From: Frankia casuarinae
GTDB lineage: Bacteria > Actinomycetota > Actinomycetes > Frankiales > Frankiaceae
Assembly (NCBI RefSeq): GCF_000013345.1
Contig: NC_007777.1
Coordinates: 2,170,001 to 2,234,000 of the forward strand
DNA length: 64,000 nucleotides
Direction of reading: 5' to 3'
Of the stretch, positions 5,246-38,209 are shown piece after piece. The notes under the pieces are model-generated. The model did not search any database, had not been told where the DNA came from, and saw only the letters and a list, made by a program, of their open reading frames with translations. Both the position numbers and the translations under genes were made by a program. The first letter of the stretch is position 1. Every line of letters begins with the position of its first letter.

Positions 5246-5845
5246 CCCGCACGACACAATATTGCTGTTCAGCGTTCTTATTTGGCGCACGCACCGTGCG
5301 CTCTCCCCGGTGGCCGCTAGGCCCAGAGCATGCACCAACGTGGCCTATCTCGATCTTCGCAGGTCGGCGGTCTCGGGCGGCTAGGCCGCCGCGCCTCGTC
5401 GCGGAGTCTCAGGACACGGGCATGCCGGTGGGCGCGCCGCACCGCGCGGGATGCGTCCCTCGCGCGGGAGCGTTTCGCGCCAATCGGTGTGAAGAGGATG
5501 CGGCTCACCGACGGTCTCGGTGCAGGTCAGGCAGGGCGCGCGACCCCGAATCACCTCTTCGCTCCTCGGGGAATGACTCGCGCCCGGCTCCTTGAAACGC
5601 TAGCCCGCGTTCCGCCAGCCATCGAGCCGTGCCAGCGCTGGCACCCGACCGAGCCCACGACGATCAGCCCACTACCGACGCCATGGTCGGCTGCCACGCG
5701 GCCATCGACAGCGAGGCGTGACACAACGCAACGCTCGCAACAGCGCCAGTCCTTTGCTTCCAAATCCATCACCGTCACGAGCGTTATCAACCAGCCCGTC
5801 CAATCCGGCGACCACAACCGGGGGCGGACCCGGAAGGGAGTCCGA
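5246..5845 (+). other. Intergenic region with one 16-bp palindrome, no gene seen
   Basis: 600 bp without a convincing gene. A perfect palindrome GTGCCAGCGCTGGCAC lies at 5629-5644 and could be an operator, but nothing ties it to a regulator. Confidence 0.4.
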
Positions 5846-6007
5846 GTGTCCGACAGCACCTCCAGCTACGAGGGTTACTGCCTCAAATGCAAGGAGAAAC
5901 GCCACTACACCGGCGAGGTCCGGATCAGCGAGTCCCGCCGGCGGATGGCCCGAGGCTCATGCCCTGTCTGCGGCTCGACGATCAACCGCATCCTCGGCAA
6001 AGCGTGA
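5846..6007 (+). CDS. DUF5679-type small zinc-ribbon protein
   Basis: 53 residues from a GTG at 5846. CLKCKEKR near the N-terminus and CPVCGSTINRI near the C-terminus give the two Cx2C knuckles of the DUF5679 family (small actinobacterial proteins, unknown function). The Shine-Dalgarno GGAAGGGAG ends 5 nt before the GTG, which decides this start; longer upstream versions lack family similarity. Likely single-gene transcript. Confidence 0.85.
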   Translation: MSDSTSSYEGYCLKCKEKRHYTGEVRISESRRRMARGSCPVCGSTINRILGKA

Positions 6008-6155
6008 CCCGCGCCAGGCATGTCCACCGTCGCCCGCCCCGCCGTTGACAAGGTCCGGTGGGGCAGGCGGACCTCCACGCAGCGCACCACCGTCTGCGGA
6101 TCGTCGAAACCTTGCATGGACACAAGAAAAGCCCAAAGACTAGGGAACAGCGGAA

Positions 6156-7028
6156 GTGGCGTCAGTGACGGACGAGGACAGCACGGTCGGCGGCTGGAAC
6201 TTTCAATCAGCGGCCAAGGAGACAGCTGCGACGACGGATCTCCGCACCGATGCACCCAACTCTGCGCGCATGTACGATTACTATTTGGGCGGTAAGGACA
6301 ATTTTCCCGCCGACCGGGAAGCCGCCGAGCAGGTGCTGGCAGCATTTCCCCAGGCGTGGACGGTGGCCCATGAGAACCGGGGTTTTCTGCGGCGGGCGAC
6401 GCGGTTCCTCGCCGCCGAGGCGGGGATACGCCAGTTTTTGGATATCGGCACTGGCATCCCGACCAGCCCGAACCTGCATGAGATAGCGCAGTCGGTAGCC
6501 CCCGATACCCGGGTCGTCTATGCGGACAATGATCCCGTCGTCCTGGCGCATGCCCGTGCCCTGCTGACCACCAGTCCGGAAGGCGCCACCGCCTACCTCG
6601 ATGCCGACCTTCGGGACCCGGAGAAGATCCTTGGCTCGGCGGAGGTACGTGCCACTGTGGACCTGAGCCGGCAGGTCGGGCTGTCACTGATCGCGATCTT
6701 GCACTTCCTGCTCGACGACCACGACCCCTACGGCATCGTGAAGACGCTGCTGGACGCACTACCCGCTGGTAGCTTTCTGGCGCTCACGCACGCCACCGCC
6801 GACTTCGCGCCCGCCGAGGCGGACCGGGCCGCTGCCATCTACCGGGACCGCGGTATCCCTGCCCAGGCCCGCAGCCGAGCCGAGGTCGAGCGATTCTTCA
6901 CGGGCCTTGATCTGGTCGATCCCGGGGTCGTCGTCGCACACCGCTGGCACCCCGACGCCCCCAACACCGCCGGTGATCCAACGGACGCGGAGGTGTCCTG
7001 CTACGCGGCCATCGCGCGCAAGCCGTAG
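6156..7028 (+). CDS. SAM-dependent methyltransferase, DUF574 / Methyltransf_19 family (second copy)
   Basis: 290 residues from GTG 6156; GTG 6165 in the same frame is an equally plausible start (GGAAG 8 nt upstream). Family signature ARMYDYYLGGKDNFPADREAA and SAM loop FLDIGTGIPT are both intact, then YADNDPVVL. Clearly homologous to the protein at 1511-2314 but diverged, so not a recent duplication. It is followed 48 nt downstream by the SpaB_C-domain gene in the same direction, suggesting an operon. Confidence 0.9.
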   Translation: MASVTDEDSTVGGWNFQSAAKETAATTDLRTDAPNSARMYDYYLGGKDNFPADREAAEQVLAAFPQAWTVAHENRGFLRRATRFLAAEAGIRQFLDIGTGIPTSPNLHEIAQSVAPDTRVVYADNDPVVLAHARALLTTSPEGATAYLDADLRDPEKILGSAEVRATVDLSRQVGLSLIAILHFLLDDHDPYGIVKTLLDALPAGSFLALTHATADFAPAEADRAAAIYRDRGIPAQARSRAEVERFFTGLDLVDPGVVVAHRWHPDAPNTAGDPTDAEVSCYAAIARKP

Positions 7029-22604: not shown

Positions 22605-23231
22605 ATGATCACGAGGATGTCGAACGAAGCCTACATCGAGCCCGAACCCGCGAAGCGCTTCGTCGACCACGCGGTGGAGGAGTATCAGCGGTGCCTGGCG
22701 AGTAGGAACGCCGATGGTGTGCCAACTCATCTACCGCGTGCCTCCGGCCTCCTGTTCGGTGTCGACAATCGCCACGGGATCACGATCGGCGACATCGAAT
22801 TCGTGAAGAATGTGCGCGACAGCGACGCGGACGTGATAGCCGAGTTCGAAGATGTAATCGCACCGCAGTTCGGCGACGTGTACAGGAACCCCGGCCGCGG
22901 GTTCTGGTGCTCCGGCGAGGACGTCTTTCAGGCGGTGAAAAAGCACGAGGCGGCGGGTCTCGAGCTGATCGGCTCGATTCATTCTCATCCGAACTGGCAT
23001 GAGATCGGACCTCAGCATGAGCGGACGCAGCGGTTGAGCGAGAAGCCGACCCGGATGGATGAGTACCTGTTCCGTCAGTCCTCCTGGCCGGTCAACCTGA
23101 TCTGGTATGTCCACGCGGGCCGTCAGGGCCTCGCACACCGGGTCGCCGCATGGAAAGCAGGGCCAGAGCGGTGCGCAGAGCTCGACCTACACATCCCGTC
23201 GCAGATCCGGGATGAGTTCGGACTGGGATGA
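22605..23231 (+). CDS. JAMM/MPN-domain protein, deubiquitinase-like (Cxm3-like)
   Basis: 208 residues. The zinc-ligand motif HSHP is at residues 126-129 (GSIHSHPNWHEIGP) and the acidic ligand is probably Asp152 (PTRMDEYLF). The spacing between them is longer than the usual HSHPx7SxxD, with T149-x-x-D152 in the S-x-x-D place. The JAMM Glu that normally stands in E-x-x-G of the first strand appears to be Arg45 (PRASGLLFG). Known JAMM proteins in sulfur pathways (Mec, QbsD) act on a ThiS/MoaD-type carrier; in chuangxinmycin biosynthesis such a protein works as a sulfurtransferase with a ubiquitin-like carrier. The next gene encodes that carrier domain, so this is the likely sulfur-handling partner. 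ATG 22617 is an alternative start. Confidence 0.8.
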   Translation: MITRMSNEAYIEPEPAKRFVDHAVEEYQRCLASRNADGVPTHLPRASGLLFGVDNRHGITIGDIEFVKNVRDSDADVIAEFEDVIAPQFGDVYRNPGRGFWCSGEDVFQAVKKHEAAGLELIGSIHSHPNWHEIGPQHERTQRLSEKPTRMDEYLFRQSSWPVNLIWYVHAGRQGLAHRVAAWKAGPERCAELDLHIPSQIRDEFGLG

Positions 23232-23307: not shown

Positions 23308-24867
23308 ATGAACGGAACGCAGAACGGCGCTCGCGAGGGTCTTCCACCGCCCATGGTTACCATCAAGATACCAGCGGCCTTCCGGGCGCTGTCCGGCGGG
23401 CAGCGGCAGGTCGCTGCCAAGGGCGAGAACATTCGCGAGGTGTTCGCCGACCTGAACGAGTGCCTGCCCGGGCTCATCGACAAGATCATGGACGGCCAGG
23501 GGTCGGTCCGACGGTATATCAACGTCTATCGAAATGACAACGACATCAGAGGCCTGGAAAATCTCGAGACCCGCGTCGAGGAAAGTGACGTGGTCTGGAT
23601 AATACCTGCAGTGGCGGGAGGTAGCATTCGTCCGGCGGTCCAGGAGCCGAAGGTGCCAGAGGTTCTGCCCTCGGAGTTCTTCCTCAATCCTGGCCCATCA
23701 CCGCACGCGACGAACGCCGAGCTCAGATCGAAATGCCCCGTCCACCAGATTAACTATCCTCCGGGAAGTGAGGCATACGCCGTTCTCGGCCACAGGGCCG
23801 TGGCGGAGGCCTTCACCGACTCGCGCCTGTCCAAGGAAGCGGAGAACCTACCTCCCAGGTTTCGCGACAGGGCTCTGTCCAGCAGCCTCCTCATGGTGCG
23901 TAACCTGGGATTCGCGGACCCTCCCGACCACGCCCGGCTGAGGAGGCCGATCAGCCGGGCATTTCTGCCGAACGCGATCGCCGACCTCCGCCCCCGCATC
24001 CAGGATGTCGTCGACGATCTCATCGACACATTCCCCGCGCCCGGTGAGATCGACCTCCTCGGCGCGTTTGCCCTGCCGCTTCCACTCACTGTCATCTGCG
24101 AGTATCTCGGGATACCTGTCCAGGACAGACCACTCTTTCTCGAGTGGGGTTACATTCTCAGCCAGGATCCCTTCCAGCACGCGGAGTCCGAGCTGAAGGC
24201 CGCGACCGAGGAATTCACCGACTACTTCACCCGGCTGGTGGCCCGACGCCGCACGGATCTGCGGAAGGACCTGCTCAGTGAGCTCGTAAGGGCGGCAGAC
24301 AGTGACGCACTCAGTGAACGCGAACTCCTCTCCACCATTCTCCTCCTGCTCATCGCGGGCCACAAGACGGTCGCGAACCTGATAGGAAATGGGACTGCTC
24401 TGCTACTCGGCCACCCAGGCCAGCTCGACCTGCTCCGAACCACTCCCGAGCTGATTCCCGCCGCGGTCGAGGAGATGCTGCGCTTCGAGGGTTCGGCCGC
24501 CTGGGCATCCATGCGGGTCGCCGTCGAGGACATGCGGCTCGCCGGAACAGAAATTCCCAGGGGGAGCTTCGTGCATCTCTTGCTGTCCAGCGCGGGGCAC
24601 GATCCGGAGGCATATGACGAGCCGGAGCGGTTCGACGTCACCCGATCCCCGAACCACCATCTGGCTTTCGGCCACGGCGCGCACTTCTGCGTTGGTGCCC
24701 CCCTCGGCCGGCTTCAAGGAGACATCGCCTTCACAACGCTGCTGCGCCGGTTGCCAGGATTCGAGCTGGCAGTCCGTCAGGACGAGGTGGAGTGGCTCGC
24801 CGACAGCTCGCTCAGCCGGGGGCTCAGAGCGCTCCCCATCCGGGTCCGGGAGCGGTTGCCGCGATGA
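23308..24867 (+). CDS. ThiS/MoaD sulfur-carrier domain fused to cytochrome P450 (Cxm4-like)
   Basis: 519 residues. Residues 16-105 are a MoaD/ThiS-type ubiquitin fold (MVTIKIPAAFRALSGG ... DVVWIIPAVAGG) ending in the diglycine Gly104-Gly105, which is not the C-terminus: it runs through a short linker into a complete bacterial P450. P450 marks: I-helix AGHKT (350-354), ExxR in VEEMLR, and haem loop FGHGAHFCVG with Cys461. A natural carrier-P450 fusion of this kind is known from chuangxinmycin biosynthesis, where the P450 part forms the C-S bond and the carrier part supplies sulfur. AGGAGG 6 nt upstream fixes the ATG at 23308. It follows the JAMM gene by 76 bp. Confidence 0.9.
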   Translation: MNGTQNGAREGLPPPMVTIKIPAAFRALSGGQRQVAAKGENIREVFADLNECLPGLIDKIMDGQGSVRRYINVYRNDNDIRGLENLETRVEESDVVWIIPAVAGGSIRPAVQEPKVPEVLPSEFFLNPGPSPHATNAELRSKCPVHQINYPPGSEAYAVLGHRAVAEAFTDSRLSKEAENLPPRFRDRALSSSLLMVRNLGFADPPDHARLRRPISRAFLPNAIADLRPRIQDVVDDLIDTFPAPGEIDLLGAFALPLPLTVICEYLGIPVQDRPLFLEWGYILSQDPFQHAESELKAATEEFTDYFTRLVARRRTDLRKDLLSELVRAADSDALSERELLSTILLLLIAGHKTVANLIGNGTALLLGHPGQLDLLRTTPELIPAAVEEMLRFEGSAAWASMRVAVEDMRLAGTEIPRGSFVHLLLSSAGHDPEAYDEPERFDVTRSPNHHLAFGHGAHFCVGAPLGRLQGDIAFTTLLRRLPGFELAVRQDEVEWLADSSLSRGLRALPIRVRERLPR

Positions 24868-24928: not shown

Positions 24929-25882
24929 ATGACGGCACGAGCAGGCGGACCGAGGATCGCGGTGGTAGGCGCGGGCGCGGTCGGTGGGTATCTCGGCGGC
25001 CGCCTGGCCGGCGCCGGTCACGAGGTGGAGTTCCTCGCCCGGGGCGAGAACCTCGCCGCGCTCCAGAAGAACGGGCTGCGGGTAATGGATGACTCAGGTT
25101 GCTGGTCGGTGCCGGATGTAAGCGCCTCCGACGACCCTGACGACATCGGAAGAGTCGACTTCGTTCTGCTCTGCGTAAAGACGGGACAGCTTTCCGATGC
25201 CGTCGAATCGCTGGGCCTCATGGTCGGCCCGGATACCGCGGTCCTCACTCTGCAGAACGGGGTCGACGCTCCCGGCCAGGTCGCGGCGAGGATTGGCCGC
25301 CGTCGCGTGCTGCCCGGAACGATAAGGATCGCGGCGACGATGGCCGGTCCTGGCGAGATTAGACACGCCGGCACCACCTGCGAGGTAAGTTTCACCGCGT
25401 GGGACGGCCAGGCATCAAGGCAGGTGACGCGCCTTCGTGAGCTCTTCCGAGAATCCCAGGTGACGGTTACCGAGCCTGACGATATTTGGGCCACCCTGTG
25501 GGCGAAGTTCCTGATGGTGGTGCCGGTCGGCAGTCTCGGAGCCGCCACCGGCGGCGCGACCATCGGCGAACTCCGTTCTCGGAGCGGTACTCGCCAGCTC
25601 CTGATCGCCGGCATGCGGGAGATCTACGAGGCCGGTCTCGGGCTGGGAATCTTCCTGCCCGACGACGCCGTGGACACGGCGATGGGACTGGTGGACAGGC
25701 AATCAGCCGGGGTCACCACCTCACTTCAGCGAGACATCCTGACCGGTAGGCGGTCGGAGCTGGACGCGTGGACCGGGGCCGCTGTCCGGCTGGCCCACGA
25801 CGCAGGTCTGAGCGCGCCGGTTCACGAACTCCTATACGAGTTGCTCGCCATCCGAGAGTCGCGTGCGGCCGAAGCGGCCTAG
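24929..25882 (+). CDS. Ketopantoate reductase-like (ApbA/PanE) dehydrogenase
   Basis: 317 residues. Rossmann start IAVVGAGAVGGYLGGRLAGA, then VDFVLLCVKTGQ and LTLQNGVDAPGQ, and a C-terminal helical domain with WAKFLMVVPVGSLGAATGG that carries the likely catalytic Lys. The family reduces 2-keto acids with NADPH. In this cluster a keto acid from tryptophan (indole-3-pyruvate to indole-lactate) is a more likely substrate than ketopantoate; that is inference. The ATG at 24929 sits just before the Rossmann motif; the ribosome-binding site is weak. Confidence 0.85.
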   Translation: MTARAGGPRIAVVGAGAVGGYLGGRLAGAGHEVEFLARGENLAALQKNGLRVMDDSGCWSVPDVSASDDPDDIGRVDFVLLCVKTGQLSDAVESLGLMVGPDTAVLTLQNGVDAPGQVAARIGRRRVLPGTIRIAATMAGPGEIRHAGTTCEVSFTAWDGQASRQVTRLRELFRESQVTVTEPDDIWATLWAKFLMVVPVGSLGAATGGATIGELRSRSGTRQLLIAGMREIYEAGLGLGIFLPDDAVDTAMGLVDRQSAGVTTSLQRDILTGRRSELDAWTGAAVRLAHDAGLSAPVHELLYELLAIRESRAAEAA

Positions 25883-26011: not shown

Positions 26012-27109
26012 GTGAAAGTGAGATTCGCCGGCCGTGACCCGCTGCGGGACGTTACGGCCTATCGGAGCACAGAGCCCGCGAACACGGCGGCAAACGAGCC
26101 CGGGCGGTTCGACCTGTCAAGCAACGAACTCGTGCTTCCCCCACTGCCCCCACTGCCCACAGTGCTCTCGGTCATCGAAGATGGCCTCAGCCGGCTGGCC
26201 CGTTACCCCGACCCGACGGCACGGACCATCACAGAGGAGATCGCGAAGCACCTGCACGTCTCCCCAGACGCGGTAGCGGTGGGCCCCGGAAGCGCCGGGG
26301 TACTCCAACAGATTCTTCTCGCACTGTGCGGCGTCGGCGACGAGGTCATCTACGCGTGGCCGGGCTTCGACGCCTACCCGCTCCTGGTCGCCATCAGCGG
26401 GGCCACGAGCGTTCACGTTCCGCTCACGTCTACCGGTGATCACGACCTGGACGAGATACGTGCGCGGGTCGGCCCGCGCACCAGGGTGATTCTTCTCTGC
26501 TCTCCCCACAATCCAACCGGCGTGGTCATTGATCGCCATCGTCTGGACTCCTTTCTGCGCTCACTGCCGGGCGACGTCCTCACGGTGCTCGACGAGGCCT
26601 ACGTCGAGTTCGATCGCGGCGAGAATCCCCCGGGTACTCCGGATGTTCTCAGCCGGCACCGCAACATCGTCGTGCTCCGGACCTTTTCGAAGGCCTACGG
26701 GCTAGCGGGCCTGCGGATCGGCTACGCCGCGGGCCCGGAGCGGATCATGGTGACCGTCCGCAAGGCCGGTCTTCCCTTTGGGGTCACCCACATCGCGGAG
26801 CAGGCGGCGATCCTCTCCCTGCACAGCGAGGGTGAGCTACGCGGTCGCCTGGACACGGTGACCGTGTCGCGAGACGAACTGACCGCTGGTCTCCGGTGGT
26901 CGGGTCTGCCGGTGCTGCCTTCTCGCGCCAACTTCGTCTGGCTCCCCCTGGCCGCTGCGGCCGACTCCTTCGCGCAGGACCTGGCGGAGGCAGGAATCAG
27001 GGTCCGCCCCTATCCGGGGTATGGCGTACGGATCTCCGTCGGAGCACCGGAAGCACAGGAGAGCCTCCTGAGGTCCCTTGGCCGAGGCGTACCCACGATC
27101 TGGGTGTGA
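26012..27109 (+). CDS. HisC-like class I/II aminotransferase
   Basis: 365 residues. Histidinol-phosphate aminotransferase-type features: LSSNELVLPPLPPLP near the N-terminus, GPGSAGVLQQILLA, CSPHNPTG, VLDEAYVEF and the PLP lysine in TFSKAYGLAGLRIGY (Lys227). In a TrpRS-inhibitor cluster the natural guess is transamination of tryptophan to indolepyruvate (inference); a true histidine-pathway role is unlikely because no other his genes are near. GTG 26012 follows AGGAG by 9 nt. It is the fourth gene of the plus-strand set. Confidence 0.85.
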   Translation: MKVRFAGRDPLRDVTAYRSTEPANTAANEPGRFDLSSNELVLPPLPPLPTVLSVIEDGLSRLARYPDPTARTITEEIAKHLHVSPDAVAVGPGSAGVLQQILLALCGVGDEVIYAWPGFDAYPLLVAISGATSVHVPLTSTGDHDLDEIRARVGPRTRVILLCSPHNPTGVVIDRHRLDSFLRSLPGDVLTVLDEAYVEFDRGENPPGTPDVLSRHRNIVVLRTFSKAYGLAGLRIGYAAGPERIMVTVRKAGLPFGVTHIAEQAAILSLHSEGELRGRLDTVTVSRDELTAGLRWSGLPVLPSRANFVWLPLAAAADSFAQDLAEAGIRVRPYPGYGVRISVGAPEAQESLLRSLGRGVPTIWV

Positions 27110-28673
27110 GGACCGCGTCATCTCCGGCTCGGCCGGCAACGGATCCTGCCGGCGCCGCGGGCGTGGGCGTCTCGGCGCACGAGCGCGCCGTGTCTTTCTA
27201 GCGACCGAAATTCGAGGTGGGAATCTAATGAGGCTTCTCCTTATCGCCATGCCATGGCAGGGACTTGACACACCGTCCAGTGCGCTGGGAGTACTCGGGC
27301 CTTCCGTCCGCGAACAGGCGCCCGGCTGGTCCGTGGACGAGTTGTACGGAAACTTCCGGTGGGCTGAGCACCTGATGTGCGCTAGCGGCGGAGCCATCGG
27401 CGTGGCGGACTACGGCAAGGTGGCGGTCCAGGTCTTTCAGGGCGTCGGCGACTGGGTCTTCGCTCCCGCGCTGTATGACGTCGCGAGCTACCGTGTCGAC
27501 GAGTACGCGCAGCTTCTCGACGCGCAGGGTGTCGACGCGGAGGTTCCCGTCGAGATGCAGCGACACTCCCGGACGTTCATCCGGCAGCTGGCGGCCGAGA
27601 TCGCCGCCGATCCACCGGACATCGTCGGATTCACCAGCACTTTCATGCAGAACGTTCCGTCACTCGCGCTCGCGAGGGAGATCAAGAGAGTCGCGCCGGG
27701 CGTCCTCACGGTGATCGGCGGCAGCAACTGCGACGGGCCGCAGGGGCCGGCCCTGCACCGGAACTTCGATCAGCTCGACTTCGTGATCAGTGGTGAAGGC
27801 GAACGGTCGCTGCCCGCGCTGCTGAGGTGTGTCGCCGCAGGTGCGAGTGTCGCCGACATACCCGGCCTCAGCTGGCGGTCCGACGGGATGACGGTCACGA
27901 ACCCACCCGCCGAGTCGTCCGTGCCCTTCGGCGTGGTGCCAGCCCCCGACTACGACGGCTACTTCCAGGCGCTCGAGAATTCGTCGCTCGGCCCCGGCAT
28001 CCGGCCGATGGCGGTTCTCGAGACATCCCGTGGCTGTTGGTGGGGCGAAGTTCACCAGTGCACCTTCTGCGGCCTGAACGGATCGAACATTAACTTTCGG
28101 AGCAAGGCTCCCGAACGCATCGCGCACGAGGTCCGGGACCTGGCGTCGAGGCACCGCGTTCTCGACGTGGTGATGGTCGACAACATTCTCGACATGGGCT
28201 ACATCGATAAGGTGATGCCGGAGCTGGCGGCCCTCGACTGTGATCTGAGGATTCACTACGAGATCAAGTCGAACATGACCCGCGAGCAGCTGGGCCGCCT
28301 GAGGGACGCGAACGTGCTCTTCGTCCAGCCGGGCATCGAGAGCCTGAGCAGCCACGTGCTTCGGCTGATGGAAAAGGGCGTGAGTTCGGCGCACAACGTG
28401 CGTATGCTGCGAGATGGCATGGATCTCGGCCTGAGCGTCACCTGGAACATCCTGTACGGATTCCCTGGGGAGACCGACGAAGATTATCAGAGCCTGCTGA
28501 GGAAAATGGCATCACTGGAACACCTCCAGCCGCCAACCGGCGCGTGGCGCATTGCACTGGAGAGGTTCAGTCCCTATTTCGATGATCCTTCCATTGGATT
28601 CATGTTCCGCACGCCGGCGCGCTTCTATGAACTTATCTATAATGTTCCAAAAGGCGAGTTGTATGATCTCGTC

Positions 28674-30572
28674 GTAAGAGTTCGGTGATGGCGTGGGTGG
28701 GCGGGCCGAAGGCCCGGCCGGTGTTGCCGGTCGGGTGGTTTTCGGCTTGTGGGTGGGGTTAGGGCTCGGGCCCGTCGGGTGGGCCGTCCTGGGGTGGGTC
28801 GGTGCTGGGAGGGCTGCCGGTCTGGGTGGTGGTCTGCCAGGTGAGGAAGGGTTCGAGGGCGGGGCCGGCGGGTGCTTTCCCGCCGGCTGTGGCGCAGGCG
28901 TTCAGGTAGCCGGTCAGGAACGCGAGGGGTTCACGGCCGTTACGCTCCGCGGTGGCGACGATGGTCCAGACCCGGGCGGCGAGGTGCGCGGCCCACTCAG
29001 CGTGTGCGCCGTAGTAGTTCTTCCGCCCGACGACCGGGGTCCGTAGCGCTCTCTCGGCAGCATTGTTGTCAAGATCCAGGTCGGGGAAGTCCTGGTGGCG
29101 GGCCAGCCCGTCCCATTCCCGGTCCAGGGTCGCCAGGACCTTCTTCGCCGCCGGGTGCAGGCTGTGGATCGCCGCCTCCGCGCGCCGCGCCGTGTCGATC
29201 GCCCTCAGCGCGGCCTCGAACGCGCCGGCGGCCTCGCGGTAGCCGCCGGTTGTGGGCTGCTCGGCGGCGAGGGCGCGGTGAGCGAGGTAGAGCATCCCGA
29301 TCCGGGCGACCCACTGGTCGGCCCAGTACCGCAGTTGGGGGTGGGCGTCCCCGGCCCGGATGAAGTACCGGCGGATGTGTGCCCAGCACCAGAGCGGGTC
29401 GACTCCGTCGACGCGGCCCAGGGACTGGTAGACGGTGTAGAAGTCCGACGAGACGACGAGGCGACGTCCGTCGGACAGCGCCCCGGCGGCCCGGTCGATC
29501 CCGAAGTGCTTCTCGACCGGGGCAGCCGAGCGGGTCGGGTCCATCCGGAACACCACCGTGTCGGCGGCGACGAACACCCACAGCCACCAGCGGGTCCCGT
29601 CCTTGCCCTCGACCCGCTCGAACACCCGCCACGTCGTCTCGTCCGCGTGGACATGACCGGCGGCGGCGTTACGCGCCACGATCTGCTCATCGAGCCCGCC
29701 GAGCAGTCCATGCACGTCCTTCAACGCCCCACACAGAGTGCCCTCGGCAACACCGAGCCCGTCGGCGGCCAGCGCCCGAGCGATCCGGTGCAACGGCAGG
29801 CCCAGGACGTACTTCTCGTAGAGAAGGCGGGCGAGGAACCCTGCGGTGAACCGGCCCTTGGGAATCGGTTTGGGTGGCACCGGCGCGGTCACTGTCCGCG
29901 GCCCCGGACATGTGCAGCACCGCCGATACCGCCGCCGCCGATGCACGATCCGGGTGATCACGACCTGCCAGTCGACCTGTTCGCTGTCGTCGGTCCCCAA
30001 CGGCGTGAACGCCACCCCACACCCGGGGCAGGCACGGTCGACCTCGGGCACATCATGGATCTCCTCGCGGGTCTGCAGATGCGAGTAGTCCCGCCGGCCA
30101 TGCCCCCGGCTCCCCGGCCGCTGCCCGCGTTGACGCGCCGGCCGGCCGGCATCCCCACCGCCCGAATCCTGCCGATCTTCTGGTTTCTCATCCACAGCCG
30201 ACGACGGGCCGGTCTTCTCCGAGGAACGACCGAACAGCATCCGGGACAGCACCGCGACCTGCTCGCTCAACTCCTCGACCCGCAGCTGCAGCTGCCCGAC
30301 ACGGGCCTCGGCTTTCTCCGCACACTCCTCGGCCCGCTCGGCACGCCCACGCCAGTACGCCACCTCGGTGACATCATCGGTGACAGACAGAACAGACACA
30401 CCACCCAGGACACATCACCAGCGTCCTCGGTATCAGGAACTACACCCGACGTATCACGAAGAGCCCACAACCCCCCACCAGCATCCCGCGGACACTCCGC
30501 CCGACTCCCGCCACAGCCACGACACCGCCACACGGCGGAACCAGCCCCTCCACGCCATCGCCGAATACTTAC
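28674..30572 (-). mobile_element. IS66-family element inside the radical-SAM gene
   Basis: 1,899 bp bounded by an 8-bp direct repeat ATCTCGTC (28666-28673 and 30573-30580). Terminal inverted repeats: GTAAGAGTTCGGTGATGGCG at the left and, read inward from the right end, GTAAGTATTCGGCGATGGCG (three mismatches in 20). GTAA ends and 8-bp duplications are typical of IS66. It carries only the large transposase gene, no tnpA/tnpB, as in the ISBst12-like subgroup. Confidence 0.93.
28759..30399 (-). CDS. IS66-family transposase (TnpC type)
   Basis: 546 residues. An N-terminal Glu/Leu coiled coil (RVGQLQLRVEELSEQVAVLS) precedes SRMLFGRSSEK, then a zinc-finger-like CPGCG and a C-x-C pair, and the DDE core: HADETTWRVFE, SSDFYTVYQ and DNNAAERALR. 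Length and order are those of IS66 transposases, and nothing is missing, so the element may still be mobile. Confidence 0.93.
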   Translation of the reverse strand: MSVLSVTDDVTEVAYWRGRAERAEECAEKAEARVGQLQLRVEELSEQVAVLSRMLFGRSSEKTGPSSAVDEKPEDRQDSGGGDAGRPARQRGQRPGSRGHGRRDYSHLQTREEIHDVPEVDRACPGCGVAFTPLGTDDSEQVDWQVVITRIVHRRRRYRRCCTCPGPRTVTAPVPPKPIPKGRFTAGFLARLLYEKYVLGLPLHRIARALAADGLGVAEGTLCGALKDVHGLLGGLDEQIVARNAAAGHVHADETTWRVFERVEGKDGTRWWLWVFVAADTVVFRMDPTRSAAPVEKHFGIDRAAGALSDGRRLVVSSDFYTVYQSLGRVDGVDPLWCWAHIRRYFIRAGDAHPQLRYWADQWVARIGMLYLAHRALAAEQPTTGGYREAAGAFEAALRAIDTARRAEAAIHSLHPAAKKVLATLDREWDGLARHQDFPDLDLDNNAAERALRTPVVGRKNYYGAHAEWAAHLAARVWTIVATAERNGREPLAFLTGYLNACATAGGKAPAGPALEPFLTWQTTTQTGSPPSTDPPQDGPPDGPEP

Positions 30573-30999
30573 ATCTCGTCTACCTTTTCGACGGCAGTAC
30601 GCGAGGGATCGCGGGGCCGCTGGAGGACGACCTGAAGCAGGCAGTCAGAAACTGGGCCGAGGCCTATCCAAGGAGCACGCTTCTGTATTGGATCGACGAC
30701 CAGGGCCGGGTGGTCATCGAGGACCAGCGGGCAAGCTGGCCTGAAGAGGTCATCGAGTTGGACGAGCTGCAAAGCAATGTATACCTCGATCTCTTCCAGG
30801 GAGCCGGGTGGGAGGGCGTGCGCCGACGGCTCGCCGACGGCGGCCAAGTCGTGACCGACGAGGAAGCCCGGAAGATCCTTCGTTACTTCGTCGACCGCGG
30901 TCTCGCCTTCGAGGACGAAGGGCGCTACGTGAGCTTGGCGCTCGAGGTCGACCCGTACCGCCGGAAGCTTGTCGACGGCAGAGAGGTCGCGGCATCCCG

Positions 31000-31743
31000 A
31001 TGAGCGCCCTGCTGGATATCGACGGACTCAGGGCGCTGGCCGACCGCCACGGGCGCCGCCCGGCGGGCGGGCGACCGGGCGCCGCGGTGCTGGTCCTCGG
31101 TGCGGACTGGACCGGGCTCCCTGCTCCTGACGAACTGGGATCGCTTCTGCGGCGTGTGCCCGTCGCCGGTGTGCGGCTGGCTGAGGCCGTCGACCTGTCA
31201 GGACTCCCGGCTGACGTGACCGCGCGAAGCATCGCGCTGGTTCGCGAATGCTCCTCGATCGGAGTGCGGTTGTCGTGGTCATTGAGCCTGAGCCCGGACC
31301 AGATGGGGATGGTTCGGATACTCGATCACCTACCGCCTCCGGGGAAGGTGACCGTCCTGGGCGAGGGAGAACTCCCCCTCGGCCATTGGCGATCGGCGGG
31401 CAGTTTTGGTCTGTTCTATTTCCGGAAGGGGCCGGACTTCGTCTCCGTAGTCGACCAGAGGAGCGAGGCCACGAATCGGTTCATCGTCGACGACGCCGTC
31501 CTCATCGACGTGCTCCGGCAGGGAATGTCGGGATGCGCGTGGGCCGACGTGACCCGGACTCCGCAGTATGCCGCGGCCGCGCGGGACCTGGTGGGCAAGG
31601 GCTTGATCCTGCGCGTCGGCGACTATTGCGTCACTCTACCGGTGCATATGCGTCGTTGGCCGGTGGGGACGCTTCTGCTGGGCGGGACTCTGGCCGCGGC
31701 CGGCACGAAGAAGTCCGTTCTGACGGTTGACCGGCAGCTCTGA
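31000..31743 (+). CDS. DUF5825-like partner of the radical-SAM methyltransferase
   Basis: 247 residues. The ATG overlaps the stop of the radical-SAM gene (ATGA, 31000-31003), so the two are coupled. The middle reads FGLFYFRKGPDFVSVVDQRS, which I recognise as the family found next to this type of radical-SAM enzyme (DUF5825). From memory of chuangxinmycin work, a protein of this family is needed by the methyltransferase; treat that as recollection. No catalytic motif is evident. After the IS66 insertion it is cut off from its coupled upstream cistron and may be poorly expressed. Confidence 0.7.
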   Translation: MSALLDIDGLRALADRHGRRPAGGRPGAAVLVLGADWTGLPAPDELGSLLRRVPVAGVRLAEAVDLSGLPADVTARSIALVRECSSIGVRLSWSLSLSPDQMGMVRILDHLPPPGKVTVLGEGELPLGHWRSAGSFGLFYFRKGPDFVSVVDQRSEATNRFIVDDAVLIDVLRQGMSGCAWADVTRTPQYAAAARDLVGKGLILRVGDYCVTLPVHMRRWPVGTLLLGGTLAAAGTKKSVLTVDRQL

Positions 31744-31880: not shown

Positions 31881-32993
31881 TCAGTAGTGGCTGTTCATGG
31901 CGGTACGCACCTCGGCGAGGGTTGCGTCGGCGACGGCTCCCGCTCGTTCGTTGCCCTCGCGGAGCACACGGCGCAGATGGGAGCGGTCCTCGGCGTAGTC
32001 GGCTCGGCGAGCCCGGATCGGTGCCAGGTAGTCGTTGACCGCTTCGATCACGATCTTCTTAAGTGCGGCGGCCCCGGCGGAGCCGATGTCGTCGGCGACC
32101 TGATGAGGGTGCCGGTTCTGGCAGAGCGAAGCGAGCAGGAGGAGGGAGGACACCTCGGGACGGTTCGCGGGATCGTAGGTGATGTGGCGCTCGGAGTCGG
32201 TCTTCGCTCCCTTGAGCAGCCGGGCGGTCTCGTCGGCGGTCGCAGCCAGGGCCACAGCGTTACGCCGGCTCTTGCTCATCTTGGAGCCATCCGTGCCGAG
32301 GAGAAGGGGCGCGCTCGACAGGAGCGCCTCGGGCTCTGGAAACAGTCTGGTGCCGTCGCCGTAGCGGTCGTTGAAGCGGCGGGCGATCGTGCGGGCGAGT
32401 TCGAGGTGGGGAAGCTGGTCCTGGCCCACTGGGACCAGGTTTCCCTTGCAGAAGAGAATGTCGGCGGCCTGGTGGACGGGGTAGGTGTACATCAGGCCAC
32501 TGACGGCCGACTGCCGGGAATGCGCGATCTCCTCCTTGACGGTGGGATTGCGGTTCAGCTCGGCAACGGAGACAAGGCTTAGAAAGGGCAGCATCAGCTG
32601 GTTGAGGGCGGGGACGGCACTGTGTGTGAAGATCGTGCTGCGTGCCGGGTCTATGCCGATGGCCAGGTAGTCCAGGACCAGTTCCTCCACGTGGGCGGTC
32701 AGGTTGTCCGCTACGTCGCGATCGGTCAGAACCTGGTAGTCAGCAATAATCAGGAAGATCTCCGTCCCGAGATCCTGAAGGCGAACCCGATTGTGCAACG
32801 TGCCGAAGTAGTGCCCGAGATGTAGGCGCCCGGTAGGACGGTCACCCGTCAGTACCCGAAACCGCTCGGGGTTGCTGAGAATCAGTTCTTCCAATTCCGC
32901 GCTGCGCGCCTGGGCGGCGGAGGTTCTGAGCGCCGAGGTAGCGGGGTCCGAGTCTGTGGTATCTAGGCCTATGGACGCGGAATCAGTGTTCAC
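31881..32993 (-). CDS. trpS: Tryptophanyl-tRNA synthetase, auxiliary/resistant type
   Basis: 370 residues with an N-terminal extension of about 45 residues. The HIGH-type motif is HLGH (58-61, in GDRPTGRLHLGHYFGTL) instead of the HLGN common in housekeeping bacterial TrpRS; KMSKS is intact (Lys238-Ser242). This spelling resembles the second, inhibitor-tolerant TrpRS of streptomycetes. It charges tRNA-Trp. Placed convergent to a chuangxinmycin-type cluster, whose product inhibits TrpRS, it is most simply the self-resistance gene (inference). GTG 32993 follows AGGAG. No T-box leader was seen upstream. Confidence 0.9.
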   Translation of the reverse strand: MNTDSASIGLDTTDSDPATSALRTSAAQARSAELEELILSNPERFRVLTGDRPTGRLHLGHYFGTLHNRVRLQDLGTEIFLIIADYQVLTDRDVADNLTAHVEELVLDYLAIGIDPARSTIFTHSAVPALNQLMLPFLSLVSVAELNRNPTVKEEIAHSRQSAVSGLMYTYPVHQAADILFCKGNLVPVGQDQLPHLELARTIARRFNDRYGDGTRLFPEPEALLSSAPLLLGTDGSKMSKSRRNAVALAATADETARLLKGAKTDSERHITYDPANRPEVSSLLLLASLCQNRHPHQVADDIGSAGAAALKKIVIEAVNDYLAPIRARRADYAEDRSHLRRVLREGNERAGAVADATLAEVRTAMNSHY

Positions 32994-34949: not shown

Positions 34950-36416
34950 TCAGTCGTCCTCGCCAGGTTCGTCGGTGAACTCCGCCGCGACCTCGGTGTC
35001 CGCCGCCGGATCATCGGCCAGGCCGGCCGCCGCGCCGGCTCGCGCATACGCCTCCCCGAAAATCCGGGTGGTGTCCAACCGGCGAAGGTAAGCCTCCGTC
35101 GTGGTGACCGATGAGTGACCCATCAAATCCCGCAGCACCAGCAGCGGATCGGCTTTGCTCAGATACAACGCCAACGCGGCGTCCGGCCCGCCGTCTCCAC
35201 CGGCCGCCACCAGTTCGGCGGCCCGCCGGTAATGCCCATCCACCAGCCGTTCCAACGTGGCCATCGCGAAAGAATGCCGCAGCCGATGCGGATGAACATG
35301 CGGGAACCGCAGCTCGACACGTGCCCGGATACGATCCGACGCGCGTTCCAAAACGGTCGCCCAGGCGGTGAACGGTCCGCCGTCCGAGCGGACCGCCAAC
35401 AGGCACGAACCACCATCCGGAGCGACCAGCCGCCGCCGCTCGCCCGGCGTCAGCGCATCCCAGTCCCGGCGCACCCCGTTAATCCGCCCGCCACGCATGT
35501 CCGGCTCGCTCACCCGCAGCGCAGGACCCCACCGGGCCGGCGGACACCATGATGCTCCTTCCACCGCGGCGGCCCGGTCCAGCGTCACATAATCATGCAC
35601 AACCCTCAGCGCCTCGACGCTGATCCAACTGGTACGGAACTTACGGCCCTTGGCCACCCCGGACGGCACCGGCAGCGCCCCCGGCCGGGACGGCGGCGTC
35701 GGGATCTCATAGACCAGCAGCGACGAGAACTCCTGCAACCGCAGGCCCGTCGCCAACGCCAACCCGACCACCGCCCGGTTACGGGCAAGCTCCCGCCCCG
35801 CATAGCCAGCATCCGCCTGACCGTCCCGGTCCAGCCCGGCCAGCGCGTTCAGCAGCAACGTCGCAAAGTCGGCTTCCAGATATTTGATCGTGACGTGCGG
35901 TTTCGGAGTTCGGCGCATCGCCAGGTTCACCCGGACGTCACGCACCATGCCGCCGACCATGGCCTTCGCGGTCCGGTAGGTGAACGGCTCGGCCGACGCA
36001 TAGCCTTCGGCCATCGCCCACCGGTAGAACATGCTCACGATGCTTATGTGCTGGCTCCACGTGCTCGCCGCCAGCCGCCGCTCCACCGGCCCCGCCGACC
36101 GGTCCTCGGCATATTTCCCAAGTGCCAGTTTGAGCTGCTCGCGCGGGCCGAGCACGTCGATGCCGTGCCCGGCCAGGAACTCCACCCAGTCCTTCACCGC
36201 CCGCGCATACGCCGCCCACGACCGCGGCGCCGGCACACCGCACGCCGGAAGCTCACGAAGCCACCGGTTCACCACCGCCGCCGGCCGCACGCACCCCGGC
36301 CCGTCCTCGAACCGCAGATCGTCGTCGACCAGCACCGGCATGCGCTCGGGGATCAGCGGCGCTGCCTCGACATCCCACGACTCCCACCCCCGTGACGAGA
36401 AGAAGATCAGCAACAT
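34950..36416 (-). CDS. Tyrosine recombinase (phage/ICE-type integrase)
   Basis: 488 residues from ATG 36416. An N-terminal SAM-like DNA-binding part (SWAAYARAVKDWVEFLAGHG) is followed by the catalytic domain: Arg in ATGLRLQEFSSLL, HPHRLRHSFAMATLERL, LMGHSSVTTTEAYLR with the Tyr. All key residues are present, so it may be active. It sits between the two parts of the broken DUF2637 copy. Upstream frames to 36506 lack a ribosome-binding site. Confidence 0.88.
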   Translation of the reverse strand: MLLIFFSSRGWESWDVEAAPLIPERMPVLVDDDLRFEDGPGCVRPAAVVNRWLRELPACGVPAPRSWAAYARAVKDWVEFLAGHGIDVLGPREQLKLALGKYAEDRSAGPVERRLAASTWSQHISIVSMFYRWAMAEGYASAEPFTYRTAKAMVGGMVRDVRVNLAMRRTPKPHVTIKYLEADFATLLLNALAGLDRDGQADAGYAGRELARNRAVVGLALATGLRLQEFSSLLVYEIPTPPSRPGALPVPSGVAKGRKFRTSWISVEALRVVHDYVTLDRAAAVEGASWCPPARWGPALRVSEPDMRGGRINGVRRDWDALTPGERRRLVAPDGGSCLLAVRSDGGPFTAWATVLERASDRIRARVELRFPHVHPHRLRHSFAMATLERLVDGHYRRAAELVAAGGDGGPDAALALYLSKADPLLVLRDLMGHSSVTTTEAYLRRLDTTRIFGEAYARAGAAAGLADDPAADTEVAAEFTDEPGEDD

Positions 36417-36546
36417 GGGAGTCGACGGTAGAACCACGACACGGCGCCGAACCACGACCAAAAACGCCGTGTCACCCCAGGTCAGCAGCGAATCGCTACA
36501 CAGCAACTAAGTGGTTGAGCCTGGAAGTCCTTTGGGGGTGCAGTGA

Positions 36547-36961: not shown

Positions 36962-38209
36962 ATGCCGTCACCCCGCGTTGCCGTACCCATAGACCTGACC
37001 GCGAGCGAACGCAGACGGCTCAAGGCCCGCGTGAACGGGCGCAGGACGCCGTACCGGGACTGGTAGCGGTCAACGATCGTGCTGGACGCGGCCCGCGGCT
37101 ACTCCAACGCGCGGATAGCCCGGCGACTGTGCGTGACCGAGGACACGGTCCGCACGTGGCGGGGCCGGTTCGCGCGGCGACGCGAGGCGGGACTGGTCGA
37201 CCTGCCCCGGTCGGGTCGGCCACGGCGGATCAGCGAGGCGGAACGGGCCGAGGTCGTCGCGCTGGCCTGCCAGTTACCTGCCGAGACCCAGGTGCCGCTG
37301 GCCCGCTGGTCGTGTCCGGAACTCGCCGCCGAACTGCTCTCCCGCGGCCTGGTCGACGCGATCTCGGCGTCGTCGGTGCGGCGGATCCTCGCCGAGCACC
37401 CGATCAAACCGTGGCGCTACCAGTCCTGGATCTTCGCGCGCGGCCCGGGCTTCGCCGCGAAGGCGAAAGTGATCCTCGATCTCTACGAGGGCTTCTACCA
37501 GGAGGAACCCCTCGGCCCCGAGGATCGAATCGTCTCGATCGACGCGAAGCCGTCGATCCAGGCGAGAGCCCGGATCCACCCGACCACCCCGCCCGCCCCG
37601 GGCAGGATCATCCGGGTCGAGCACGAGTACGAACGTCACGGCGCGCTCGCGCTGTTGCCCGCGCTCGACGTCCAGACCGGGAGGATCGCCGCCGTGCTGA
37701 CCCCGCCGACGACGGGCATCGCGCCGTTCATGGAACTGATGGGCCAGGTCATGGCCCAGGACCGCTACCGGACGGCGAAGCGCGTGTTCGTGATCGTCGA
37801 CAACGGCTCCGACCACCGAGGCCAGGCCTCGATCAACCGACTCAGGGCCGCCCACCCGAACCGCATCCTGATCCACACCCCGACACACGCCTCATGGCTG
37901 AACCAAGTGGAGATCTTCTTCTCGCTCGTCCAACGGAAGGTCGTGTCACCCTGCGACTTCGCCAGCCTCGACGTGCTCGCCGACACCCTGACAGCGTTCG
38001 TCGACCGCTACAACGTCACCGCCACACCGTTCAAGTGGAAGTACACCGCGGCCGACCTCGAACGCCACCTCGCCCGCCTCGACGACGACACAGCACCAGC
38101 CGTCGCGGGCTCCGTCGCTCGGTTGCCCGTCCCACCACCCGACACCAATGATCACGGGAGTCGGGTGGAGTCCGAACCAAGTGCCAGAGCCCTCGCGCAG
38201 GCCGCCTAA
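36962..38209 (+). pseudogene. IS630-family transposase with an in-frame TAG near the N-terminus
   Basis: The frame from ATG 36962 reads MPSPRVAVPIDLTASERRRL and reaches TAG at 37064-37066 in GRRTPYRDW; the same frame goes on RSTIVLDAARGYSNARIARR without interruption to 38209. IS630 transposases have one continuous sequence across this point. A GTG at 37079 could start a 376-residue protein that keeps the HTH and the DDE motifs (VSIDAKPSIQ, VFVIVDNGSDH, THASWLNQVEIFF) but lacks about 35 residues, so activity is uncertain. Confidence 0.8.

Follow-up and report, generated by a model that had tools for sequence, protein, structure and literature searches.

According to its published summary (PMC12087186), the chuangxinmycin pathway employs an aminotransferase (CxnB), a reductase (CxnC) and a P450 (CxnD) for the C-S bond. 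CxnE is the sulfur carrier, CxnF is a "deubiquitinase-like sulfurtransferase" working with CxnE, CxnA and CxnA1 provide a methyltransferase step, and a tryptophanyl-tRNA synthetase (TrpRS) is the suspected resistance gene. Carriers whose Gly-Gly is blocked by extra residues, and which need a JAMM protease, occur in thioplatensimycin (PtmS2 with PtmS1) and thioquinolobactin (with QbsD); according to PMC6006322, the JAMM protein PtmS1 is needed for thioplatensimycin, capped carriers are implicated, and housekeeping carriers serve another pathway. The caps are short in these systems, two residues in PtmS2 and one in PtmS3. A fused carrier is found in Deinococcus, where the MoaD-MoaE protein must be cut by a JAMM (DRJAMM; PMC8832034).

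The stretch of DNA analyzed here (64,000 nucleotides of Frankia casuarinae, hereafter the window) comes from a genome assembled as one contig of 5,433,628 bases. Judged by the orthology of its P450 to CxnD and by a gene set matching the published pathway, it contains a chuangxinmycin-type (cxn) gene cluster. The P450 aligned to the CxnD structure 6kfw with 694 bits over 402 residues without a gap, starting at residue 118 of the chain, while the runner-up PDB match reached 282 bits; CxnD is the one Actinoplanes tsinanensis protein with which the comparison was made at sequence level. The carrier, JAMM sulfurtransferase, reductase and aminotransferase genes were recognized by protein family and by homologous clusters. 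On the forward strand, the CxnF-type JAMM gene (22605 to 23231) is followed by the carrier-P450 fusion (23308 to 24867), a cxnC-type NAD(P)H reductase of the ApbA/PanE family (24929 to 25882) and a cxnB-type, HisC-like PLP aminotransferase (26012 to 27109), the latter two assigned with Pfam, NCBIfam and the homologous clusters. Farther downstream, a DUF5825 gene (30808 to 31743, forward strand) was identified by its relatives in cxn clusters; its start codon is uncertain and, as listed, it overlaps the tail of cxnA. Two other cxn loci, L013 and L016, were scanned for DUF5825, and both have it at the matching place; the product of the window gene is probably the CxnA1 partner. A second TrpRS gene lies on the reverse strand (31881 to 32993; NCBIfam and homologous clusters). 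The genome has two TrpRS genes, one of them in the cluster, and this extra copy is presumed to confer self-resistance. No LysR-type regulator CxnR was detected among the window genes covered by the family scans. A tyrosine recombinase and a DDE transposase are encoded near the cluster (34950 to 36506 and 37079 to 38209), and among 13 genomes from this genus the JAMM was found in just one; it is therefore likely that the cluster was gained by transfer.

The enzyme set and roles equal those of the A. tsinanensis cluster (CxnA1, CxnA to CxnF and TrpRS). Two differences stand out: the published account of A. tsinanensis treats CxnE and CxnD as two proteins, which form one chain in the window, and the window's cxnA is broken by an IS66 element. 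This B12 radical SAM methyltransferase gene is present in two forward-strand parts, both assigned with NCBIfam and the homologous clusters: a 5' part at 27078 to 28673, whose true start is uncertain (homology begins about 24 to 50 codons into the listed ORF), and a 3' part at 30573 to 31003. The insertion between them (28674 to 30572) has ends that match at 20 of 25 positions and is flanked by a perfect 8-bp target duplication, ATCTCGTC, at 28666 to 28673 and 30573 to 30580. Since the methyltransferase gene is broken, norchuangxinmycin is expected at most, which makes the window's an additional chuangxinmycin-type cluster, with that compound as its predicted end point.

The fusion is an uninterrupted ORF of 519 codons (ORF list, Pfam, NCBIfam and PDB search) starting at the ATG at 23308, with a strong ribosome site, GAGGAGGA, immediately upstream, and its frame is already open from 23101. 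Residues 1 to 105 (23308 to 23622) form a ThiS/SAMP1-type carrier domain: Pfam ThiS (PF02597) covers residues 19 to 105 with its entire profile (1 to 76 of 76; E value of 2.2e-9), and NCBIfam SAMP1 matches the same residues (E value of 5.4e-14), its 52.5 bits falling under the cutoff of 60. Gly104-Gly105 (23617 to 23622) is the exact terminus of the ThiS profile. A linker of 10 codons (106 to 115, SIRPAVQEPK, 23623 to 23652) stands where unfused CxnE has its C-terminal cap, and the P450 part (p450 Pfam E value of 4.1e-27) runs from the GTG at codon 116 for 404 residues (23653 to 24867). The heme loop FGHGAHFC and the I-helix motif AGHKT can be seen within it. An initial sequence-only reading had described a Gly-Gly inside one polypeptide ahead of a complete P450, and this is borne out by the continuous ORF and the full ThiS and p450 domains, with no frame break found between them in the window. 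As translated, the Gly-Gly is internal, with 414 residues behind it, and the free C-terminal Gly-Gly of ThiS/MoaD carriers could be attained only through processing. An AF2 model of the fusion built on 12 alignment rows was too poor (pLDDT of 46.7) to judge exposure of the Gly-Gly. As in Deinococcus MoaD-MoaE, the carrier has its C-terminal Gly inside the chain and is joined to a downstream enzyme, but the partner in that published case is MoaE, whereas here it is a P450 of secondary metabolism and cleavage is something we infer. The fusion is not described in the titles and abstract openings listed for chuangxinmycin together with Frankia and for carrier-P450-JAMM combinations, which make a weak test, nor does the available part of the CcI3 transcriptome paper contain anything on this locus.

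A contig scan with the window JAMM yielded six homologous loci from 63 pattern matches, and a family search added L077, the remaining close matches belonging to the genomes of the first six; the comparison set was hence eight clusters, the window and seven others. Searches at family and at order level for the window's genome covered one and the same set of 35 genomes and gave no additional cxn cluster, and in the phylum sample two matches were found besides the window, both weak, distant JAMMs. Within the stretch examined, all seven other clusters have the JAMM, carrier, P450, reductase, radical SAM and TrpRS genes, and a HisC-like gene turned up in three. All eight carriers contain AVAGG at the equivalent point, followed by an extension that begins with Ser, so that homologs lacking the Gly-Gly, which would have spoken against the initial reading, were not seen among the eight. 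This identical position, together with the low dN/dS of both parts of the fusion, suggests more than chance: in pairwise comparisons with five of the seven other clusters, values were 0.22 to 0.29 for the carrier part and 0.16 to 0.22 for the P450 part (0.16 to 0.40 over the six cluster genes compared). Such values fit long-term constraint on the fusion, and recent decay would be compatible with them too. Carrier and P450 are fused in two clusters only, the window and L018 (Labedaea rhizosphaerae). In the other six they are separate genes, and the carrier ends in a cap 3 to 10 residues long (for instance, AGGSGA, AGGSATVRS and AGGSGTTGAQESR). The capped carrier of thioquinolobactin, QbsE, is a comparable case. 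Because the cxn carrier is capped even where it is separate, it probably had to be decapped before any fusion arose, and what the fusion adds, by this comparison, is probably just a very large cap.

The two fusions have unlike junctions. In four of the six unfused clusters the cxnE stop overlaps the cxnD start (ATGA), with 29 nucleotides from the Gly-Gly codons to the cxnD ATG, and in the other two the stop lies 8 nucleotides before the start. The window has 30 nucleotides from the Gly-Gly codons to the in-frame GTG116 (23653 to 23655), and the former ATGA reads GTGC, without the overlapping stop; at least two changes, a lost stop and a frame shift, therefore distinguish it. A Shine-Dalgarno-like AGGAG (23642 to 23646, forward strand) lies 6 nucleotides before GTG116, where the ribosome site of the homologous cxnD genes sits. 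On the forward strand of the window, 49 of 1775 ATG/GTG codons (2.8%) are paired with a ribosome site; of the 15 in-frame starts inside the fusion, two (codons 95 and 116) are paired in this way, and codon 116 alone coincides with the homologous cxnD start. With this signal and start preserved, the P450 could also be made alone. The initial reading had required the fusion to be processed or translated to a shorter form, failing which the chemistry would differ; processing should indeed be needed for the blocked Gly-Gly, and the P450 might plausibly exist in a shorter form, since the preserved start would yield the P450 alone and not the carrier. In L018, GGS passes straight into DVLPTEFF through a longer in-frame change, and both the cap and the cxnD start are missing. 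A cut after the Gly-Gly there would leave a P450 beginning with SDVLPTEFF, and the L016 P450 begins with MSDVLPTEYF. In-frame candidate starts near the L018 junction are GTG 90 (the Val of AVAGG), CTG 97, GTG 122 and further CTG codons; AGGAG, GGAGG and GAGGA do not occur within L018 10802 to 10980, and by sequence a P450 start at GTG 90 may be possible. The best concatenated tree of six genes (HisC was omitted, having been found in only three of the seven other clusters) placed L018 apart from the window and L077 with a support of 95. An AU test did not reject joining the window with L018 (p of 0.142), and hence the case for two origins depends mainly on the differing junctions, which suggest that the fusion probably arose twice.

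The neighboring JAMM protein had been named as the obvious candidate for cleaving after the diglycine, and this part of the reading has weakened. The gene lies directly 5' of the carrier and is co-directional with it in all eight cxn clusters, and its product (208 residues, a probable sulfurtransferase) is 55 to 67% identical to the seven other cxn JAMMs. The Prok-JAB Pfam match is below the cutoff and a PDB sequence search gave nothing useful, while Foldseek searches with a model of pLDDT 78 recovered the JAMM fold (5cw6, E value of 1.1e-7; 5lda, E value of 8.2e-7), the matches being DrBRCC36 and PfJAMM1/SAMP2. The MPN+ signature, given in PMC8832034 as Glu ... H-S/T-H-x7-S-x2-D, is altered at three positions: Glu is replaced by Arg45, Ser by Pro136 and Asp by Glu139. 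The CxnF-type proteins that were aligned share the alteration. Among 27 proteins (the window, the six contig-scan loci and 20 further JAMM regions), the signature Glu is present in 0 of the 26 that have that column (L095 does not), Pro replaces Ser in 27 of 27, and Asp has become Glu in 26 and Ala in one. H126, H128, H132, E80, S145 and D152 are invariant in all 27, with both HxH histidines retained throughout, and E80, S145 and D152 might, to judge from conservation, rebuild an active site. In a profile comparison Arg45 paired with the Mec Glu, but weakly (E value of 0.013, probability of 3.4%); the residue mapping consequently rests on the HxH anchor, the preceding strand motif and the published spacing.

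The 20 further JAMM regions, some of which are short contigs, were also searched for carriers (HMM, E value up to 1). A carrier was found in 4 of them (L077, L078, L079 and L081) and in none of the other 16 at this threshold, short contigs included. L079 and L081 resemble thienodolin clusters, a label given on the basis of their gene set. They share with the window a CxnF-type JAMM, a carrier, a P450 and a HisC-like aminotransferase; they differ in that the carrier is separate and distant and ends in a bare AVAGG (about 8 kb from the JAMM in L079 and about 5 kb in L081), in having an Asn synthase in both, and in the Trp halogenase of L079. If JAMM and carrier cooperate in these regions, the role for which the JAMM was kept there would not be decapping. 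Given this co-occurrence with a free-Gly-Gly carrier, the missing MPN+ signature in the 27 aligned proteins and the sulfurtransferase role described in PMC12087186, the neighboring JAMM does not stand out as the protease. The window's cluster differs in this from the capped-carrier systems as published, in which the JAMM is a protease, while its own JAMM has no protease signature.

A canonical Mec-type JAMM (DEACG ... HSHT ... SRTD) is encoded elsewhere in the genome, at C1:1009879-1010223, adjoining a CysO-like carrier whose own Gly-Gly is followed by 31 residues. We consider this protein the likeliest protease for the fusion, with CxnF second. Seven ThiF-family matches were found in the genome, five of them over the family cutoff and none inside the window. 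The explanation we hold to be probable, though well short of certain, is that the fusion is a linear precursor in the cxn pathway, resembling ubiquitin fusions and cut after Gly105, most likely by the Mec-type JAMM; like ubiquitin, which is released from precursors, the carrier probably needs a cut to set it free. Loss of the cxnE stop (ATGA to GTGC) and one net extra base would have put CxnE and CxnD in one frame. A protease would then cut after Gly105 and release the carrier, whose C-terminal Gly would be adenylated and thiocarboxylated by a host E1, putatively one of the ThiF proteins. Following the pathway steps in the literature, CxnB would supply a keto acid, to which CxnF would transfer the sulfur, CxnC would reduce the sulfur product to a thiol and CxnD would close the S-ring, with extra P450 possibly made from the preserved internal start GTG116. 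A more elaborate version can be offered only tentatively: a carrier-P450 precursor that antibiotic clusters probably made twice, from which a deubiquitinase-like cut would release equal amounts of both proteins, with a housekeeping JAMM acting in trans and CxnF having traded protease activity for sulfur transfer.

Capped CxnE may also be processed by CxnF itself, which counts against putting Mec first. CxnF would then cut the fusion after Gly105 and later act as a sulfurtransferase on the freed carrier, a reading we regard as possible but somewhat unlikely. Its constant position upstream of the carrier, the two retained histidines and a predicted fold resembling JAMMs that cleave ubiquitin-like proteins speak for it. 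Against these stand the altered signature at all three positions in the aligned proteins and the keeping of the same JAMM type alongside the bare-Gly-Gly carriers of L079 and L081; the catalytic residues, for their part, were mapped by sequence with a weak Mec alignment, which counts against our own account as well.

That the cxnA gene is interrupted and the cxnE stop lost could also mean that the cluster is decaying in this strain and that the fused carrier no longer works. The clean target duplication of the IS66 element, the finding of the JAMM in just 1 of 13 genus genomes, and window JAMM and carrier branches that are among the longest in the gene trees would all fit; nevertheless, the remaining core genes are open and conserved (the dN/dS range given above, with which recent decay is compatible), the frame is open across the junction, and L018 is fused as well though its cxnA is one open frame, so that we judge decay unlikely. 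Processing might also be unnecessary if the sulfur came from the CysO-like carrier, the fused domain serving only to dock CxnF or E1 beside the P450. The genome does have such a carrier with its own Mec JAMM, and housekeeping carriers serve another pathway (PMC6006322), but a scaffold would not need the Gly-Gly that both fused proteins retain, and the dN/dS of the fused carrier is as low as that of other cluster genes; uncut use of the fusion is in our estimation improbable. Finally, a false extra base from sequencing or assembly might have joined two separate genes, given that four relatives have a spacer shorter by one base and that one genome represents the species. This is scarcely credible: a one-base correction would not bring back the usual stop, as the old ATGA overlap is GTGC, the other two frames from the junction first meet a stop 95 and 32 codons on, and L018 is fused through a different, longer change.

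If cleavage of the fusion is real, ubiquitin-style precursor processing extends to an enzyme of secondary metabolism, and the locus would provide a clean test of which JAMM is the protease and which the sulfurtransferase. By the altered motif common to the 27 CxnF-type proteins, a JAMM subfamily that does not resemble peptidases could be recognized when genomes are mined for sulfur-inserting pathways. The tail of the CysO-like carrier (L097:2059-2499; G000:C1 near 1010506), at 31 residues past the Gly-Gly, is unusually long. CxnF-type JAMMs are present in 41 of 390 genomes of the family to which Labedaea belongs, and of five JAMM regions from this family, L080, L093 and L096 gave no carrier in the search described, while L077 and L079 have one. 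Another thienodolin-like region, L085, has a CxnF-type JAMM, a HisC-like aminotransferase and a P450, with no carrier found on its contig. In L078 there is no P450 match on the 7.7-kb contig, and a CxnF-type JAMM, a carrier ending in AVAGGS and a protein with a rhodanese domain lie in a row (5252 to 6739), possibly belonging to another sulfur pathway.
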